DNA of 64,000 nucleotides, taken from assembly GCF_002563635.1 (NCBI RefSeq), contig NZ_PDIZ01000001.1:744001-808000 (forward strand), in the 5' to 3' direction. This DNA comes from Bacillus sp. es.036. Lineage in GTDB: Bacteria > Bacillota > Bacilli > Bacillales > Guptibacillaceae. A program made the position numbers and the translations under genes. The notes under the pieces are model-generated. The model worked only from the letters and a program-made list of their open reading frames with translations. It searched no databases and was not told the DNA's origin. How positions within the stretch are numbered: the stretch's first letter is position 1; the number at the start of each line of letters is the position of its first letter. Shown here piece by piece: positions 12,444-57,775 of this stretch.

Positions 12444-14285
12444 TTGTGTGGGATAACGGGATGGGTGGATTGGAAGAAAAGTCTAACAGGCGAAGAGAAA
12501 GTCCTCCAGCATATGGCGCAAACTTTATCAAAAAGAGGACCTGATGCATCAAACCATTGGGTTGATGGTCATTGTGGATTTGGTCATACGCGTTTAGTCG
12601 TTGTCGATCCGGCTGGTGGAAGTCAGCCGATGACAAGAAAACATGGTGAAATCAACTATACAATTTGTTATAACGGTGAGTTATACAATACAGAGGATTT
12701 ACGCAAAGTTCTCCTCGGTAAGGGGTATACTTTCCAATCTCATTCAGATACGGAAGTTCTTTTAACATGCTATGTTGAGTGGGGAGAGCAGTGCGTGGAT
12801 CATTTGAATGGCATATTTGCCTTTGGGATTTGGGATGGAGAACGTCTCTTTCTTGCAAGAGACCGACTTGGAGTTAAACCATTATTTTATCGTCAAAGTG
12901 GAAGTTCGCTTCAATTCGGATCTGAACTTAAAGCGATCCTTGCGCATCCAGACGTCAAGAAAGAGATCGACCGAAGTGGTTTACAAGAAATCTTTGGCCT
13001 AGGTCCATCTCGTACGCCAGGTCACGGTGTTTTTCGTGGAATCAGTGAGCTCCGGCCGGGGTTTGCTATGAAATTTGAACGGAGCGGAATTCGAATTTGG
13101 CGTTATTGGAATGTTGTCAGTACCGAGCACACGGATGACCTTGATACTACGGTGGAAAAGGTTGGCGATCTTTTAAAAGATTCGATTAAAAGGCAGCTTG
13201 TAGCGGATGTTCCCGTTTGCACGTTTTTATCCGGTGGGGTTGATTCTAGCGCGATTACTTCTGTTGCTAGAAGTGCATTTCAGGATGATGGGAAAGGTAC
13301 GCTTCGTTCTTTTTCCGTAGATTATGTGGATAATGATAAATACTTTAAGAGTAGTGAATTTCAGCCTAATTCAGATGCGCCTTGGATTAAAAAGGTTTCA
13401 GCAGAACTTGCAACAGATCATACGAACTGTGTGATTGACACAGCTCAGCTTGTTCATCATCTAAAAGAAGCGATTGAATGTCGTGATCTTCCAGGCATGG
13501 CTGACGTCGATTCATCCTTGCTATGGTTCTCAAAAGAAATCAAAAAACACGCAACTGTAGCGCTATCTGGTGAATGTGCAGATGAGATCTTTGGTGGTTA
13601 TCCTTGGTTTCATAAACCTGAACTATTAGATCAAGAACAGTTCCCATGGATGCGGTCCACTCTTGAAAGACAGGCGATGTTAAAAGAAGACGTTCGGAAT
13701 AAGTTGAAATTAGAAGACTACGTGATTGAAAGGTATCGTGAATCGATTAAAGAAACCCCAGCGCTTGATGGCGAAAGTGAAATCGAAGCAAAAAGAAGAG
13801 CCCTCTTTTATTTAAATCTAAATTGGTTTATGACAACGTTACTTGAACGCAAAGATCGTATGAGCATGGGGGCTAGTTTAGAAGTTAGGGTGCCGTTTTC
13901 CGATCATCGAATCATTGAATACGTTTGGAATGTACCGTGGGAGATGAAGATGCTTGATGGAAGAGAAAAAGGGCTATTGCGTAAAGCGATGACTGGAACA
14001 CTCTCGCATGATGTGCTCTACCGTAAAAAAAGCCCTTATCCTAAAACATATAACCCGGCTTATACGAAAGCTGTCTCTTCATGGCTTCAAGATACGCTCA
14101 ATAATAAGCAGGCGCCACTCCTCGAATTAATCGATCAAAAAGTTGTTCAAGAAATTATCGATTCAGAAGGGAAAGCATTTAAAGTGCCTTGGTTCGGTCA
14201 ACTAATGGCTGGTCCACAATTAATTGCTCACCTTGCTCAAATCAATTACTGGATGCAACATCATAACGTGAATATAGTAGATTAA
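12444..14285 (+). CDS. asnO: Glutamine-hydrolysing asparagine synthetase AsnO
   Basis: A 613-residue enzyme. The N-terminal Ntn glutaminase domain begins with the nucleophile Cys2 (MCGITGW) and includes the RGPDAS and YNGELYN motifs. The C-terminal synthetase domain carries the ATP pyrophosphatase loop FLSGGVDSSA (about residue 260) and the SGECADEIFGGYPW motif. It converts aspartate, glutamine and ATP to asparagine. The start is TTG (12444), required to place Cys at position 2, with RBS GGGGAGGAAG. Size and neighbourhood (yis region) match B. subtilis AsnO (YisO), which is sporulation-linked, rather than AsnB. Confidence 0.9.
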   Translation: MCGITGWVDWKKSLTGEEKVLQHMAQTLSKRGPDASNHWVDGHCGFGHTRLVVVDPAGGSQPMTRKHGEINYTICYNGELYNTEDLRKVLLGKGYTFQSHSDTEVLLTCYVEWGEQCVDHLNGIFAFGIWDGERLFLARDRLGVKPLFYRQSGSSLQFGSELKAILAHPDVKKEIDRSGLQEIFGLGPSRTPGHGVFRGISELRPGFAMKFERSGIRIWRYWNVVSTEHTDDLDTTVEKVGDLLKDSIKRQLVADVPVCTFLSGGVDSSAITSVARSAFQDDGKGTLRSFSVDYVDNDKYFKSSEFQPNSDAPWIKKVSAELATDHTNCVIDTAQLVHHLKEAIECRDLPGMADVDSSLLWFSKEIKKHATVALSGECADEIFGGYPWFHKPELLDQEQFPWMRSTLERQAMLKEDVRNKLKLEDYVIERYRESIKETPALDGESEIEAKRRALFYLNLNWFMTTLLERKDRMSMGASLEVRVPFSDHRIIEYVWNVPWEMKMLDGREKGLLRKAMTGTLSHDVLYRKKSPYPKTYNPAYTKAVSSWLQDTLNNKQAPLLELIDQKVVQEIIDSEGKAFKVPWFGQLMAGPQLIAHLAQINYWMQHHNVNIVD

Positions 14286-14286
14286 G

Positions 14287-14321
14287 AAAAGGACCGGAGC
14301 GAGGTGCTCCGGTCCTTTTCT
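14287..14321 (+). terminator. Terminator after asnO
   Basis: The strong stem AAAAGGACCGGAGC/GCTCCGGTCCTTTT has a 5-nt loop and begins 1-2 nt after the stop. Confidence 0.9.
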
Positions 14322-14340
14322 ATTGGTGTTTATAGTTTAG

Positions 14341-14868
14341 GGCTTGAAGTGCCTGCCGTGTCTAAACGGGCGCTTCCGCTTTAAATGTCTAGCTGCGCGG
14401 GCCAAATCCTCCGGCTGTTTCGCTCTTTCGATTGAGACAAAAAGCGTCTCATTCGAAAGAGCTCCAACATCCTGCGGATTTAAACGGGCCCGCTCCGCTT
14501 TTCATGAGATCCAGCTGCGACTCGCAGAAACTGCGATATTTCACTCTTTCACCAGAACACAAAGGGCGTGTTCTAGTTCAAGAGTTCCAATATCTCCGTT
14601 TCTAAACGCTCGTCTTCGCCTTTCGTAGATCCAGCTGCAGTGGGCAGACACTCTGTCACTTCACCCTATAACTCGAACACAAAGACCGTGTTCAATTTAT
14701 AGGGTTCCAGTGCCTGCCGTGTCTAGACGCCCACTTCCGCCTTTCGTGTCTAGCTGCAGCCTCCAGACCCTCGGTCACTTCACCTTTTCATCCGAACACA
14801 AAGACCGTGTTCAAATGAAAAGGCTCCAGTGTCTGCCGGGTCTAAACGGAGGCTTCCGCTTTTCGGTT
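14341..14868 (+). repeat. Modular palindromic repeat array, locus 1
   Basis: Head-to-tail units of about 118 nt in the + orientation: a truncated 3' half (14341-14382), type A (14388-14503), type C (14508-14624), type B (14628-14745) and type D (14749-14865). Each full unit opens near (GA)TCYAGCTGC and closes near CCGCYTTTC. Nested complementary arms surround a central hairpin with an ACAAARNNCGT-like loop. In type D the outer arms are GCCTCC/GGAGGC and the middle arms AGACCC/GGGTCT; in type B they are GTGGGC/GCCCAC and AGACAC/GTGTCT, so both partners changed together. The array fills the gap between the convergent asnO and amt genes and ends a few bases from the amt stop. Confidence 0.9.
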
Positions 14869-16272
14869 TTACCCGCTGGTTTTTGCTTCGGCTTGTGGCT
14901 CTTTAACGCCTGGTTCGAGTCCGTTGAGTCTCTCGACTAGGCCGTGGCCGAATGGAGAAGGCGATGATGGGCTTTCGTTGTTGTTTAGAATGCCGCCTCT
15001 AAGCTCGTATGCTGTTGAGCCGTGCTCTGCGAAGTCAAGTCCTTGAATTTCTTCTTCACGAGAAACGCGGATTGATGAGAAACGTGTATAGATGAATAAA
15101 AAGGTACCAACAGTTCCCATTGTCCAGGCCATAACAGCTAGAATTCCGATTGCTTGAACGAGGATGAGTGATGCGCCGCCTCCGTAAAATAAGCCGCCAT
15201 CGATAGCAAATAATCCGACTGCTAAAGTTCCCCATACCCCGCATACACCGTGAACCGCAATTGCTCCAACTGGATCATCTAATTTCACGCGGCGATCGAT
15301 CAATTGAACGGCTTCGATTAGAATAACTCCAGAAATCAGACCGATAAACATAGCACCAATTGGGGATACGCTTGCTGTACCTGCTGTAATACCGACTAAA
15401 CCAGCTAATGCGCCGTTTAGTGTTAAGGAAGCGTCAATTTGCTTATAGCGAATATAAGAATAAAGGGCACTGCCGATGACGCCACTTGAAGCTGAGAGAA
15501 GAGTGGTTGCTACGATAGTAGGAATAAGTGCGTCGCTTGCTGAAAGGGTACTACCTGCATTAAAACCAAACCAACCGAACCAGAGAATGAATACGCCAAG
15601 AGCGCCGAGTGGAATATTATGTCCTTGAATAACATTTACCTTGCCGTTCGAATATTTCCCAATACGTCCTCCGAGAAACGCTACGACAACAACTGCTCCA
15701 AGCGCACCAGTCATGTGAACGACCGTTGATCCTGCAAAGTCCGTGAATCCTAATTCTGCTAGCCATCCGCCACCCCAGATCCAGTGGCCTACGACAGGGT
15801 AGACAAATCCAATCATGATTACTGTAACAGCGATATAGCTAATCAGTTTCATTCGTTCAGCTACTGCGCCAGAAATAATCGTTGCACAAGTTGCTGCAAA
15901 GACGGCCTGGAATACAAAGAATCCAAGATTTTCAGATTGTCCAAAAAGAAAGAAGCCATCACTCCCAATAAACCCGCCCGCTGAAGAACCAAACATTAAT
16001 CCATAGCCAACAATGAAGTAAAGAACTGCACCGATCGACATCGTTAGTAAGTTTTTCATTAAAATGTTTAATGCGTTTTTCGAGCGAGTAAACCCAGTTT
16101 CAACCATTGCGAATCCTGCGTGCATAAAGAATACGAGAAATGCAGCAATCATAATCCAGACGGTATCCATTGAAGCACTTAAGGCACTGACTTCTGTAGC
16201 ATCACCTGCTGCGAAGACATGCCCACCTGAAAGAAGGAAGAGAAGAGCGAACAAACCAGTCATTTTTTTCAT
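14869..16272 (-). CDS. amtB: Ammonium transporter (Amt/NrgA family)
   Basis: About 467 residues: a cleavable-looking signal peptide (MKKMTGLFALLFLLSGGHVFAA), then eleven hydrophobic helices with the Amt signature regions VYPVVGHWIWGGG and HGVCGVWGTLAVG, which carry the pore histidines. The cytoplasmic tail of about 60 residues is longer and more polar than usual and ends beside repeat locus 1. It imports ammonium or ammonia and is gated by the P-II protein encoded just upstream on the same strand (22-nt gap). ATG at 16272 is chosen because AAAAGGAT is correctly spaced for it; the ATG at 16284 directly abuts that RBS. Confidence 0.93.
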   Translation of the reverse strand: MKKMTGLFALLFLLSGGHVFAAGDATEVSALSASMDTVWIMIAAFLVFFMHAGFAMVETGFTRSKNALNILMKNLLTMSIGAVLYFIVGYGLMFGSSAGGFIGSDGFFLFGQSENLGFFVFQAVFAATCATIISGAVAERMKLISYIAVTVIMIGFVYPVVGHWIWGGGWLAELGFTDFAGSTVVHMTGALGAVVVVAFLGGRIGKYSNGKVNVIQGHNIPLGALGVFILWFGWFGFNAGSTLSASDALIPTIVATTLLSASSGVIGSALYSYIRYKQIDASLTLNGALAGLVGITAGTASVSPIGAMFIGLISGVILIEAVQLIDRRVKLDDPVGAIAVHGVCGVWGTLAVGLFAIDGGLFYGGGASLILVQAIGILAVMAWTMGTVGTFLFIYTRFSSIRVSREEEIQGLDFAEHGSTAYELRGGILNNNESPSSPSPFGHGLVERLNGLEPGVKEPQAEAKTSG

Positions 16273-28625: not shown

Positions 28626-28663
28626 TTTAATAGTATCAAACGATTACATGTAAAGCTTTTATA

Positions 28664-28754
28664 TATCCACTAGGGGAGTCATTTTAATGACTGAGACAGG
28701 TGTACCTGGACCCTTTGAACCTGATCTGGTTAGCGCCAGCGGAGGAAAGTGGAG
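28664..28754 (+). ncRNA. TPP riboswitch (THI element)
   Basis: It contains the hallmark pieces ACTAGGGGAGTC, GACTGAGACAGG, CCCTTTGAACCTGATCTGGTT and GCGCCAGCGGAGGAAAGTG in order. It precedes tenA-ykoEDC, which fits thiamine control. Binding of thiamine pyrophosphate should favour the downstream terminator. Confidence 0.95.
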
Positions 28755-28769
28755 ACGGATGCCACCGCA

Positions 28770-33806: not shown

Positions 33807-34646
33807 TTGGAAGAAGTAAAAAAAATTATTATTATTCTCTTAGGTGCGGTTCTCGGGGCTGTTTCTCTTAACTTGTTTCTAATTCCTGCAAATGTGTATG
33901 CGAGCGGGTTTACAGGGATCGCGCAGCTCATTTCAAGCGTACTAAGTGACTATACACCACTTAACATCTCGACAGGTATTCTGCTCTTGTTACTCAATAT
34001 TCCTGTTGCCATTCTTGGATGGAAGAAAGTAGGGAAGTCCTTTACATTATATAGTGTGATTAGCGTAGGGGCTACCACTATATTCCTTGAAATCATTCCG
34101 GTCCAAGCGCTTTCAGAGGATATTTTGTTAAATGCTGTATTTGGAGGCGTCATTGCAGCGATTGGTATCGGTTTTACGTTAAAATGGGGGGCTTCTACGG
34201 GCGGAATGGACATTGTCGCTATGATCCTTTCTAGAATGAAAGATCGTCCGATTGGTACGTATTTCTTTAGCATGAACGCGTTGATTATTCTAACAGCGGG
34301 AATGCTGTACGGCTGGGAAAAAGCGCTTTACACGCTCGTTACCTTATATGTATCCTCTCGCGTGATTGATGTCATTCACACTCGTCACGAAAAACTAACG
34401 GCCATGATCGTAACAGCGAAAGGTGACGAAATGCAAAAAGCCATTCACGATCGTTTAGTAAGAGGAATCACCAAGCTTCCAGCCAAAGGAGCCTACCGCG
34501 GTGAACCAAAAGAAATGCTTATGATCGTCGTCACAAGATATGAACTCTATGACCTTGAACACATCATTCAAGACATCGACCCAACCGCCTTCACCAACAT
34601 CGTCAACACCACAGGCATATTTGGTTTCTTTAGAACGGATGGTTAG
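33807..34646 (+). CDS. yitT: YitT family membrane protein
   Basis: About 279 residues with five or six N-terminal membrane helices (YitT/DUF161) and a C-terminal soluble DUF2179 domain (from about 220) ending in the TGIFGFF motif. The transport substrate is unknown. TTG at 33807 (MEEVKK) lies 6 nt after AAGGTG and is preferred over GTG at 33798. The stop codon TAG directly abuts repeat locus 2, with AAAAGCGG following. Confidence 0.88.
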   Translation: MEEVKKIIIILLGAVLGAVSLNLFLIPANVYASGFTGIAQLISSVLSDYTPLNISTGILLLLLNIPVAILGWKKVGKSFTLYSVISVGATTIFLEIIPVQALSEDILLNAVFGGVIAAIGIGFTLKWGASTGGMDIVAMILSRMKDRPIGTYFFSMNALIILTAGMLYGWEKALYTLVTLYVSSRVIDVIHTRHEKLTAMIVTAKGDEMQKAIHDRLVRGITKLPAKGAYRGEPKEMLMIVVTRYELYDLEHIIQDIDPTAFTNIVNTTGIFGFFRTDG

Positions 34647-34942
34647 AAAAGCGGAAGTGGGCGTTTAGACACGGCAGGCACTGGAGGCATCCAAATTGAA
34701 CACGCCCTTTGTGTTCGAGTTGGATGGTGAAGTGACCGAGTGTCTGCCCACTGCAGCTGGATCAAAGAAATGCGGAGACGAGCGTTTAGAAACGGAGATA
34801 TTGGAACTCTTGAACTAGAACACGCCCTTTGTGTTCTGGTGAAAGAGTGAAATATCGGAGTTTCTGAAAGTCGCAGCTGGATCAAGAAAAGGGGAAGCGT
34901 CCGTTTAGCCTCGACAAGAGCTGGAGTCTTATCACCGAAACA
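34646..34942 (-). repeat. Modular palindromic repeat array, locus 2 (reverse orientation)
   Basis: Read on the minus strand the order is a truncated unit (34884-34942), type C (34764-34883) and type B (34646-34763). Type B has outer arms GTGGGC/GCCCAC, middle arms AGACAC/GTGTCT and inner arms ATCCAA/TTGGAT; type C has AGAAAC/GTTTCT and AGAACAC/GTGTTCT. The array lies between the convergent yitT and NifU-like genes and touches the yitT stop codon. The truncated copy loses its 5' half at the central hairpin. Confidence 0.88.
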
Positions 34943-34986: not shown

Positions 34987-35024
34987 AAAAAAGTTCCTCA
35001 GGATTACCCCTGAGGAACTTTTTT
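34987..35024 (-). terminator. Terminator after the NifU-N gene
   Basis: A 16-bp perfect stem (AAGTTCCTCAGG with CCTGAGGAACTT plus the A/T runs) with a 6-nt loop. It can act in both directions and follows the minus-strand gene. Confidence 0.9.
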
Positions 35025-44819: not shown

Positions 44820-44902
44820 GCAGTTTCGCGGATATATTCGTGTTTTCGCGGAATTATTAACCGATTTCGCGGAATAAATCAGATTATCGCGGAATTGATG
44901 GT
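44820..44902. repeat. 20/21-nt phased TCGCGGAAT word repeat
   Basis: CGCGGA occurs at 44827, 44847, 44868 and 44888, spaced 20, 21 and 20 nt, each preceded by T and followed by A/T-rich sequence. The array lies between the moaD terminator and repeat locus 3. It copies the architecture of the GCCAATAA array at 381 with a different word. Confidence 0.65.
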
Positions 44903-45435
44903 CGAAAGGGGGCGATATCCTGCGGATTTATGCGGGATGGTTCGGCTTTTCGATGATCCAGCTGCGCGGGCCAAATCCTCCGGCTGTTTCGCCCTTTCGA
45001 TTGAGACAAAAATCGTCTCATTCGAAAGAGCTCCAACATCCTGCGGATCTAAACGGGCCCGCTCCGCTTTTCGATGATCCAGCTGCGACTTTCAGAAACT
45101 GCGATATTTCACTCTTTCACCAGAACACAAAGGGCGTGTTCTAGTTCAAGAGTTCCAATATCTCCGTTTCTAAACGCTCGTCTTCGCTTTTCTTTGATCC
45201 AGCTGCAGTGGGCAGACACTCGGTCACTTCACCATCCAACTCGAACACAAAGAGCGTGTTCAATTTGGATGGCTCCAGTGCCTGTCGTGTCTAAACGGGC
45301 GCTTCCGCTTTTCATAAGATCCAGCTGCGCGGGCCAAATCCTCCGGCTGTTTCGCCCTTTCGATTGAGACAAAAAGCGTCTCATTCGAAAGGGCTCCAAC
45401 ATCCTGCGGATTTAAGCAGGCCCGCTCCGCTTTTC
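44903..45435 (+). repeat. Modular palindromic repeat array, locus 3
   Basis: + strand order: truncated 3' half of type A (44903-44951), type A (44955-45072), type C (45076-45192), type B (45196-45313) and type A (45318-45435). Type A has arms GCGGGCC/GGCCCGC, AAATCC/GGATTT and CCCTTTCG/CGAAAGGG. The type B copy ends in GGGCGC rather than GCCCAC, so its outer stem is broken, perhaps by exchange with another unit. The array lies between the convergent moaD and fnr genes and ends at the fnr stop codon. Confidence 0.9.
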
Positions 45436-46125
45436 CTATAACCTACAAATCGTTATTGGGCAGTCTTCGCAGTGGATGGCGCAGCGGAGGAATTCGAGGT
45501 TGTGAATGGTGATGATTCCTTGTTTGACTGAGACAATGTTGGCTTTTTTTAGTTCGCTTAGGATGCGGTTGACGCTTTCTCTTGTAAGACCGCAGAAGTT
45601 GCCTAATTCTTGATTGGTCAGGGGAATGTCGATTAGGATGTCATCGTTTTTTTTGACGCCATATGTATTGGATAGACGAATTAAAGTAGAGTAGAGAGCT
45701 CCTTTTTTTCCGTGTAACAATAGATCTCGAAACTTAGATTGGTTTTTTCTAAAATTCTCGCCCATGAATTTCATGAACTGAGTGGCGAGGATGGCATCGC
45801 TCGTTAATGTTTCTTCAAGGTGGGCCTGTTTAACGAAGGTAGCTTTTACTTTATCAACCGCCCAGGCATTTGCAGAAAAGTTAAGCTGCCCTGTATAAAG
45901 CGCAAGTTCTCCGATAAGATCACCAGGCTGACAAATTTGAAGCGTTAGTTCTCTGCCTTCGGAGGTCAGTTTGTTTAATCGCACGTTTCCAGACTGTATA
46001 AGAAAAAGGCGATCCGCTTTCATCCCATCCATATAAAGTGGTTCGTCTTTTTGAAATGAAATTGATTCGCCTTCTTCAGCAATCCACTTTTTTAGTGCAT
46101 CAGAGTTGATCGTATCTTTTTTCAT
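45436..46125 (-). CDS. fnr: Crp/Fnr family regulator (Bacillus Fnr type)
   Basis: A 229-residue Crp/Fnr protein: a cyclic-nucleotide-binding-like domain (about 1-130), a dimer helix and a winged helix-turn-helix with the recognition helix NFCGLTRESVNRILSEL. The C-terminus reads RCAIHCEDCPITICRL, giving the Cys-x2-Cys-x4-Cys arrangement that binds the 4Fe-4S cluster in B. subtilis Fnr. It is thus an oxygen sensor for anaerobic respiration rather than a cAMP regulator. Its stop codon directly abuts repeat locus 3. Confidence 0.85.
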   Translation of the reverse strand: MKKDTINSDALKKWIAEEGESISFQKDEPLYMDGMKADRLFLIQSGNVRLNKLTSEGRELTLQICQPGDLIGELALYTGQLNFSANAWAVDKVKATFVKQAHLEETLTSDAILATQFMKFMGENFRKNQSKFRDLLLHGKKGALYSTLIRLSNTYGVKKNDDILIDIPLTNQELGNFCGLTRESVNRILSELKKANIVSVKQGIITIHNLEFLRCAIHCEDCPITICRL

Positions 46126-55055: not shown

Positions 55056-55577
55056 TGAAATATCTTTATTTCTAAACGCTCGTCTCCGCTTTTCATGATC
55101 CAGCTACGCGGGCCAAATCCTTCGGCTGTTTCACCTTTTTGATTGAGACAAAAAGAGTCTCATTCAAAAAGGCTCCAACATCCTGCGGATTTAAGCGGGC
55201 CCGCTCCGCTTTTCATGATCCAGCTGCAGTGGGCAGGGTCTCGATCGCTTCACCATTTCAAATGAACACAAAGACCGTGTTCTTTTGAAATGCCTCCAGC
55301 GCTTGTCGACCCTAAACGCCCACTTCCGCTTTTCGTGAGATCCAGCTGCAGTGGGCAGACACTCGGTCACTTCACCATCCAACTCGAACACAAAGGGCGT
55401 GTTCAATTTGGATGCCTCCAGTGCCTGCCGTGTCTAACCGCCCACTTTCGCTTTTCGGTGTTCTAGCTGCGCGGGCCAAATCCTCCGGCTGTTTCGCCTT
55501 TTTGATTGAGACAAAAAGCGTCTCATTCAAAAAGGCTCCAACATCCTGCGGATTTAAACGGGCCCGCTCCGCTTTTC
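55056..55577 (+). repeat. Modular palindromic repeat array, locus 4
   Basis: + strand order: truncated 3' half of type C (55056-55094), type A (55097-55214), type B variant (55217-55334), type B (55339-55456) and type A (55461-55577). In the B variant the middle arms are AGGGTC/GACCCT instead of AGACAC/GTGTCT, with unchanged outer arms GTGGGC/GCCCAC: a six-base swap made on both sides. In both type A copies the inner arms are CCTTTTT/AAAAAGG. It follows the fabF terminator and precedes yjbA on the same strand, the only array not between convergent genes. Confidence 0.9.
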
Positions 55578-57507: not shown

Positions 57508-57775
57508 AAAAGGTCCATTCCTCCCTTTATTGCTAGGGACGAATGGACCGTGGTGCCACCCTGCTTATCCAGTAAGACTGGATCACTTATGGTAATGAAT
57601 ACCGCTAGTGGTAACGTGAATGCTCACGCCAATGCCTACTTACTCGTTCAGCAAAGGGGCTCAGAAGTCCATTCCAAAACGTGTGTTACCTGTTTTCACC
57701 AACCACAGGCTCTCTATAAACACAGCAATTTGTACTACTCTTCCTCAAAGCCGTTCTGTATCCTTCTACGTTACT
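57508..57775 (-). ncRNA. Tryptophan T-box riboswitch of trpS
   Basis: On the minus strand the T-box sequence AGGGTGGCACCACGG (57562-57548) lies beside an intrinsic terminator (57549-57511, then a T run). Stem I carries GGAATGGAC, with the specifier codon TGG at 57671-57669, as expected for Trp. Uncharged tRNA-Trp should stabilise the antiterminator and allow trpS expression. Confidence 0.93.

Follow-up and report, generated by a model that had tools for sequence, protein, structure and literature searches.

Hairpin-forming intergenic repeats arranged in arrays in Bacillus sp. es.036 and other Bacillales

The closest described counterparts of the repeats analyzed here are intergenic palindromic repeats such as REP, ERIC, BOX, and bcr1. 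ERIC is an element of Enterobacteria that occurs in E. coli, and BOX carries variable numbers of an inner module. Integron attC sites also bear comparison, as they combine variable complementary stems, conserved unpaired bases, cassette-like arrays, and a strand preference. They end in inverted RYYYAAC / GTTRRRY core sites, and it is their folded bottom strand that a tyrosine integrase recombines. REPs, in the excerpted text of PMC3733652, are short intergenic palindromes with complementary changes, found mostly downstream of genes and proposed to move with Y1 transposases acting on single-stranded DNA. The same excerpts describe TIR-associated transposases with GGGGWSAS motifs. The available part of PMC2267715 tabulates the sizes of BOX, RUP, and bcr1 and describes Bhal-1 of Bacillus halodurans, an intergenic stem-loop family of 74 nt and 36 copies.

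Like REPs, the units described here are intergenic palindromes with complementary changes, but REPs measure 20-40 bp and carry a GTAG/CGTC tag (PMC3733652, excerpts), whereas our units mostly measure 113-150 nt and have other ends. The units also lie in same-direction tandem arrays, and no matching transposase was found. With ERIC, BOX, RUP, and bcr1 they share a length of about 100-160 bp (sizes from the available part of PMC2267715), an intergenic position, foldability, and a probably non-autonomous nature. They differ in their wide host range, strong arm covariation, and fixed 3′ end with an accompanying fragment and, in the case of ERIC, in that one unit used as a blastn query (E 0.01) had no match in 20,395 E. 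coli records. Going by its partial description in PMC2267715, Bhal-1 might be a piece of the unit family. The resemblance to attC covers all four of the traits named above, but by eye the consensus ends of the unit hold no inverted core-site pair, and the arrays hold no cassette genes.

The window, meaning the whole 64,000-nt stretch of Bacillus sp. es.036 DNA analyzed here, had been predicted to hold 14 full and 4 truncated units of about 118 nt at four loci, with constant ends and a constant loop. Reading of the sequence and a covariance-model search of the window confirmed this inventory, and the ends and loop are as described within the window. Full units are 117-118 nt long, and the GATCC end interchanges with TGTCT among them. 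Each array opens with one truncated unit, which lies 5′ of the full units and corresponds to a 3′ fragment of a unit, and all units within an array share one orientation. The neighboring genes are ordinary by Pfam: asparagine synthase, ammonium transporter, YitT, Nfu, MoaE, Crp-like, ketoacyl synthase, and DUF3603. By the ORF list and Pfam, three arrays run up to the stop codon of a convergent gene: that of the ammonium transporter gene begins at 14869, 5 nt past array 1; that of the YitT-family gene is overlapped by the 3′ end of array 2; and that of the Crp-like gene, at 45436, directly adjoins array 3. Array 4 lies upstream of the start of the DUF3603 gene. A 15th model match (14287-14384, 15.7 bits) was rejected as a unit. 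A different short repeat with TTTCGCGGAAT-like motifs occurs beside several arrays, at 44824-44896 of the window and in the upstream flanks at L060, L076, and L080.

Table 1. Array components and putative terminator-like hairpins in the window
Feature	Positions	Strand	Basis
Array 1, 5′ truncated unit, right-arm part only	14341-14385	+	resembles 3′ part of full unit
Array 1, four full units (14386-14503, 14508-14624, 14628-14745, 14747-14864)	14386-14864	+	model R1, 78-134 bits
Array 2, 5′ truncated unit	34885-34942	-	resembles the unit's 3′ part
Array 2, two full units (34767-34883, 34646-34763)	34646-34883	-	model R1 matches
Array 3, 5′ truncated unit	44902-44951	+	sequence reading
Array 3, four full units (44955-45072, 45076-45192, 45196-45313, 45318-45435)	44955-45435	+	model R1 matches
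Array 4, 5′ truncated unit	55056-55094	+	sequence reading
Array 4, four full units (55097-55214, 55217-55334, 55339-55456, 55460-55577)	55097-55577	+	model R1 matches
Putative terminator-like two-way hairpin between asparagine synthase gene and array 1	14285-14321	.	inverted repeat I1, A and T runs
Putative terminator-like hairpin between Nfu gene and array 2	34987-35024	.	inverted repeat I1

Folded singly, window units (n = 5) gave z-scores of -3.6 to -7.8. The original prediction described a three-stem unit; its variable complementary stems are present, but they stack into one long imperfect hairpin and do not form three separate ones. Reading inward, a constant AGC/GCT foot is followed by an outer stem that varies, a TAAAC-like bulge on one side, a middle stem that varies, another short stem, an internal loop, an inner stem that again varies, and finally the apical stem with the loop. 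Across Bacillales, units are mostly 113-150 nt long and end in GATC/TGTC-YAGCT and CCGCTTTTC. The apical loop is less constant across Bacillales than within the window: it measures 7 nt in 52 and reads AAARNNC in 35 of 87 non-redundant Bacillales units.

The predicted paired changes in the stems are real and exceed both shuffled and slid controls. Among 139 distinct Bacillales units, 91.5% of cells were paired, against 62.9% after shuffling, and the covariation score was 0.664 against 0.174 (sd 0.005), with none of 500 shuffles as high; in this alignment, which was fitted to the model and consists of related sequences, the gap to the shuffles is a large difference and not a p-value. Sliding the pairing by 1-3 columns lowered the score to at most 0.13. 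As a model-free check, 30 units aligned with MAFFT and folded with RNAalifold gave 30 pairs, with 800 of 894 cells Watson-Crick. The same procedure on all 14 window units yielded just 14 pairs, because the unit types were misaligned, and the first model was then built from six equal-length window units. Not every stem stays complementary: most arms pair, but some are mismatched, for example AGTGGG against GGCGCTT in the unit at 45196-45313. A single pair position is G.T in 114 of the 139 units and was excluded from the G.U and A.C counts given below.

Among copies only 1-2 differences apart, 35 of 37 changed pairs were changed on one side, and the share changed on both sides climbed with divergence from 5% to 60% (the latter at 19-30 differences), in percentages based on sequence pairs that are not independent of one another. 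One-sided events numbered 0.12 per paired site and 0.31 per unpaired site (15 clusters, 174 units). With one-sided changes coming first, two-sided changes later, and fewer one-sided events in stems, arm pairing is maintained in two steps. Conservation is higher at unpaired than at paired positions (1.20 vs 0.81 bits).

We then examined how widely the family occurs. The first model gave 87 matches in the genome of Bacillus sp. es.036, in about 33 arrays by manual grouping (scripted counts use 88 matches and 34 arrays, among them two weak matches, at 41.9 and 28.0 bits, and a single one at 27.7 bits). The family is present in each of the 13 same-genus relatives searched, and outside the genus blastn finds it in 4 of 27 genomes. 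A second model, built from 150 of 180 Bacillales matches, detected it in 120 of 150 sampled Bacillales genomes and 65 of 83 genera, with up to 24 candidates scored per genome; repeats like those that the original prediction mentioned for other Bacillaceae are widespread in other Bacillales. In a class-level sample, 24 of 200 genomes matched, and the 12 outside the order were confined to two families. Among the matches listed for an exact junction pattern, hosts included Bacillus, Rossellomorea, Mesobacillus, Neobacillus, Cytobacillus, Metabacillus, Peribacillus, Planococcus, Sporosarcina, Jeotgalibacillus, and Alkalihalobacillus. One unit used as the query had no match in 50,697 phage records or in 72,556 plasmid records, and two exact junction patterns had none in viral contigs; carriage as phage or plasmid cargo was rejected on the outcome of these single-query and exact-pattern searches. 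Two fragment-less single units of the own genome (L078 and L079, at C3:133722-133839 and 172520-172637) lie, by eye, in the apparent 23S-5S spacers of two rRNA operons, antisense to the rRNA, and equal-scoring single units are present in relatives G007 and G009.

An Rfam scan of the window returned only a T-box leader (57532-57757, minus strand) and a TPP riboswitch (28662-28764, plus strand), both away from the arrays. At permissive E-values array 4 gave eight matches, all below the gathering score, and across 18 Bacillales loci RF01690 was matched inside three interrupted units, with the unit itself unmatched. We therefore rejected a known RNA family, as nothing over the gathering score matched the unit in the window or those loci. 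The earlier statement that the unit has no named family likewise stands for the open-access literature searched by name and sequence. A family with very clear arm covariation, present in 120 of the 150 sampled genomes of a large and well-studied order, thus has no Rfam match in the loci scanned.

RF01690 itself, Bacillaceae-1 RNA, is catalogued as an sRNA gene, is highly repetitive, and occurs in 77 of 150 genomes of the order, many of which reach the scoring cap. It resembles the units in being a repeated hairpin element of many of the same genomes, and it sits within some units, but it is a separate 67-nt motif found also outside them (L262:7404-7470; L208:1802-1868 and 2234-2300; L349-L367). 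It lay directly 3′ of AGG or GGG in 16 of 19 loci examined (30 fetched) and looks like an inserting repeat element. Its presence within units was dropped as proof of an RNA strand, because the motif occurs elsewhere too. The units bear in turn on this catalogued RNA, given how repetitive it is and that some copies lie inside them.

The downstream flanks of 14 own-genome arrays were located in 13 relatives (176 matches). Ten sites were picked because the own genome has arrays there; of the 100 orthologous regions fetched for them, 83 contain one or more model matches (partial only in two) and 17 contain none. The array sites are old. Their contents change much faster than their flanks: the flanks are 95-100% identical to those of G007, G009, and G011 (except at W14, with 88% in G009 and 92% in G011), and of 24 own-genome units at the ten sites, only 5, 3, and 5 are matched at 95% at their own site in these three relatives, and 8, 6, and 8 anywhere among the ten sites. 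Arrays that outpace their flanks in this way could serve as fast strain markers. At W55, where units were found by a text pattern with a few false ones and core types were assigned by us, the order of types is near-C, G, B, C for G000, whereas G007 has I, J, B, A and G009 has D, A, x, E, A. L072 is a fragment alone in G009 and a fragment plus one full unit, of differing types, in G000 and G007. L068 is a fragment alone in G009, with one unit in G007 and two in G000. W34 is empty in three relatives and a fragment alone in G007, and L094 holds five consecutive equal-scoring units in one relative. By eye, no clear target duplication was seen at diverged empty sites, and no transposition event was seen among the compared array sites. 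A further repeat with GCGGAAAGCGAGCATCCTGGAGCGGAAATTA was observed in G013 at W55 and L068, once beside an array site and once at a unit-less site.

Core types and outer stems also reassort, with core E joined to four outer stems. The two outer arms of a unit match (at least 5/6) in 67% of 214 units, compared with 27% for arms drawn from two members of an array and 13% for random arms. In 21 of the 214, at most 3/6 outer pairs form, and these look like mismatched recombinants.

Within the genus, a recognizable 3′ fragment precedes 85 of 109 arrays, and the same test gave none for the other 24. Fragments are between 12 and 118 nt long, with lengths peaking broadly at 45-55, and the idea that truncation falls exactly at the loop was dropped given this spread. 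In a wider set (the best 150 units, with some arrays shortened and five loci from Pseudalkalibacillus or strain DSM 16346), CGCTTTTC or a one-letter variant lies directly 5′ of the first unit in 50 of 64 arrays. In 12 of the 34 arrays of the own genome, the stop of an opposing ORF (at least 90 aa) lies -4 to +4 nt from the 3′ end, and in none does it lie at +5 to +38; among convergent arrays of the wider set, the stop lies within -1 to +4 nt in 18 of 22, with the others at +10 and +33.

Array orientation tends to follow replication. It agrees with GC skew in 26 of 34 and in 63 of 80 arrays, the array at 34646 being among the exceptions. Sorted by neighboring genes (34 + 62 arrays), agreement was 37:2 where both genes run along the array, 18:5 in convergent and 13:2 in divergent settings (31:7 for these two combined), and 9:10, without bias, where both genes run against it. 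Measured from dnaA in two closed relatives, with 150 of 168 units taken in and the terminus assumed to lie opposite dnaA, the bias was weaker than by GC skew, at 19:7 and 24:11 (p = 0.03 and 0.04).

We next asked on which strand, and as which molecule, the fold might act. Wobble counts leave out positions whose commonest pair is non-Watson-Crick. The strand shown has 38 G.U vs 64 A.C cells (1.2% vs 2.1%; 87 non-redundant units), and 8 vs 21 in the model-free alignment of 30 units, whereas SAM riboswitches of the order, as a control, have 28 vs 7 (3.6% vs 0.9%; 27 non-redundant, all high-scoring). As G.U is scarcer than A.C, the reverse of SAM, the strand shown does not behave like RNA. The original prediction held that the folded form is selected or copied as RNA or single-stranded DNA, and of this an RNA function of the strand shown is not supported. 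It did not mention the changing contents at conserved sites, the opening half-unit, the 3′ end at stop codons, or the orientation linked to replication. The order-wide control replaced a narrower SAM set that was too weak (31 vs 3 in 30 related sequences; 5 vs 2 in the 5 left once near-identicals were removed). An excess of G.T over A.C on the plus strand in one alignment (110 vs 66) was discarded, being largely one fixed column (69 G.T). On the opposite strand, where A.C becomes G.U, the ratio is 64:38 (model-free, 21:8), which the order-wide control places nearer to that of real RNA. One-sided stem transitions gave a wobble on the strand shown in 25 cases and on the opposite strand in 56 (31 clusters, 238 units), against an expectation of 45:55 from unpaired sites (p = 0.014). 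Folding, too, favors the opposite strand, by about 4-6 kcal/mol: it folds better than the strand shown in 123 of 136 representatives with RNA rules, in 125 with DNA rules, and in 129 with G.U disallowed.

The explanation we tentatively prefer, and consider quite possible, is a non-autonomous intergenic hairpin repeat of the REP/ERIC/BOX kind, whose modules are exchanged between old sites and whose pairing is kept as folded DNA. The DNA level is favored because wobble is scarcer than in SAM riboswitches on either strand, together with the turnover and the orientation. The unit would be a folded hairpin whose ends are constant, whose apical loop is constant in part, and whose stems vary but stay complementary. 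Arrays of, mostly, one right-arm fragment and n full units would persist at old sites, often after what by eye may be a terminator-like hairpin, and would reach the next stop codon or promoter region. Recombination or template switching on folded single-stranded DNA, probably at the replication fork, would let arrays gain, lose, and swap units as modules, and recognition or preservation of a particular folded DNA shape would keep the arms matched. The sites, their contents, the turnover, the pairing, and the absence of a G.U preference on the strand shown are observed; that folded DNA is recognized, that forks are involved, and that a dedicated transposase is now dispensable are our inferences. 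Against such a DNA repeat, the retention in 83 of 100 regions could reflect a host function, homologous recombination of the ordinary kind between copies may account for the turnover with no need for the fold to be recognized, and the wobble ratio of the opposite strand approaches that of real RNA. The weaker orientation bias from dnaA, its absence where both neighbors run against the array, and the failure to see an enzyme or a transposition event count against it too. In the arrays, the copying, swapping, and correction of long palindromes during bacterial replication could be studied as a natural experiment.

A serious rival to a DNA-level fold, even if we rate it as rather unlikely, is that the opposite strand is the one read, giving structured RNA elements that in convergent gene pairs lie directly after the stop of the opposing gene. 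Such RNA might stabilize, process, or end the opposing transcript, or guard against colliding transcription. The closely placed opposing stops in the own genome and elsewhere, the better folding of that strand, its wobble ratios set beside SAM, and the stronger conservation of unpaired positions all speak for it. Arrays are convergent only in part, however, and elsewhere the opposite strand is antisense to both neighbors; its wobble cells (2.1-2.4%) stay below the 3.6% of SAM, and about 33 arrays per genome are too few for a general role at 3′ ends.

The units could instead be neutral palindromes of any origin, in which hairpin-templated repair copies one arm onto the other and so produces paired change without selection or recognition. 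The lack of a wobble preference on the strand shown, the units with mismatched outer arms, and the rise of both-side change with divergence would fit, but bulges, internal loops, the partly constant loop, and the constant G.T persist order-wide when indiscriminate correction should erase them, and the sites are retained over long times. We consider this account improbable.

We regard as doubtful, too, a gene-less integron-like system, in which a widely conserved putative recombinase of Bacillales would act on hairpin cassettes in folded single-stranded form, cutting and joining them. The 5′ fragment of each array would serve as landing site, and recognition would depend on the fold instead of the sequence. 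On this reading, few loci in otherwise near-identical genomes would vary as much as the arrays.

Finally, REP-like miniature elements moved by a Y1 (HUH) transposase of IS200/IS605 or RAYT type are very unlikely: the units are foldable and intergenic with replication-linked orientation, and Y1_Tnp genes occur in 125 of 150 genomes of the order, but 13 of 20 listed genomes without a Y1_Tnp match carry units (several of them at the scoring cap), units lie within about 2.5 kb of only 1 of 16 Y1 genes (open frames of 178-290 aa), and no GTAG or CGTC tag is present at unit ends. A Y1 transposase as present driver was weakened by the same two observations on unit-bearing genomes and gene proximity. 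No dedicated RAYT gene flanked by the repeat was found: 1 of the 16 Y1 loci examined has a unit nearby, and there are unit-rich genomes without a Y1_Tnp match. The search for a driving enzyme found none; by inference only, the simplest candidates are the host's own recombination and replication functions, working on hairpins. Of four such Y1 loci scanned for inverted repeats, one has a different palindrome with GGGGACAGGCACC near the gene (L343:1842-1943), which resembles the GGGGWSAS TIR-associated type as described in the excerpts of PMC3733652.
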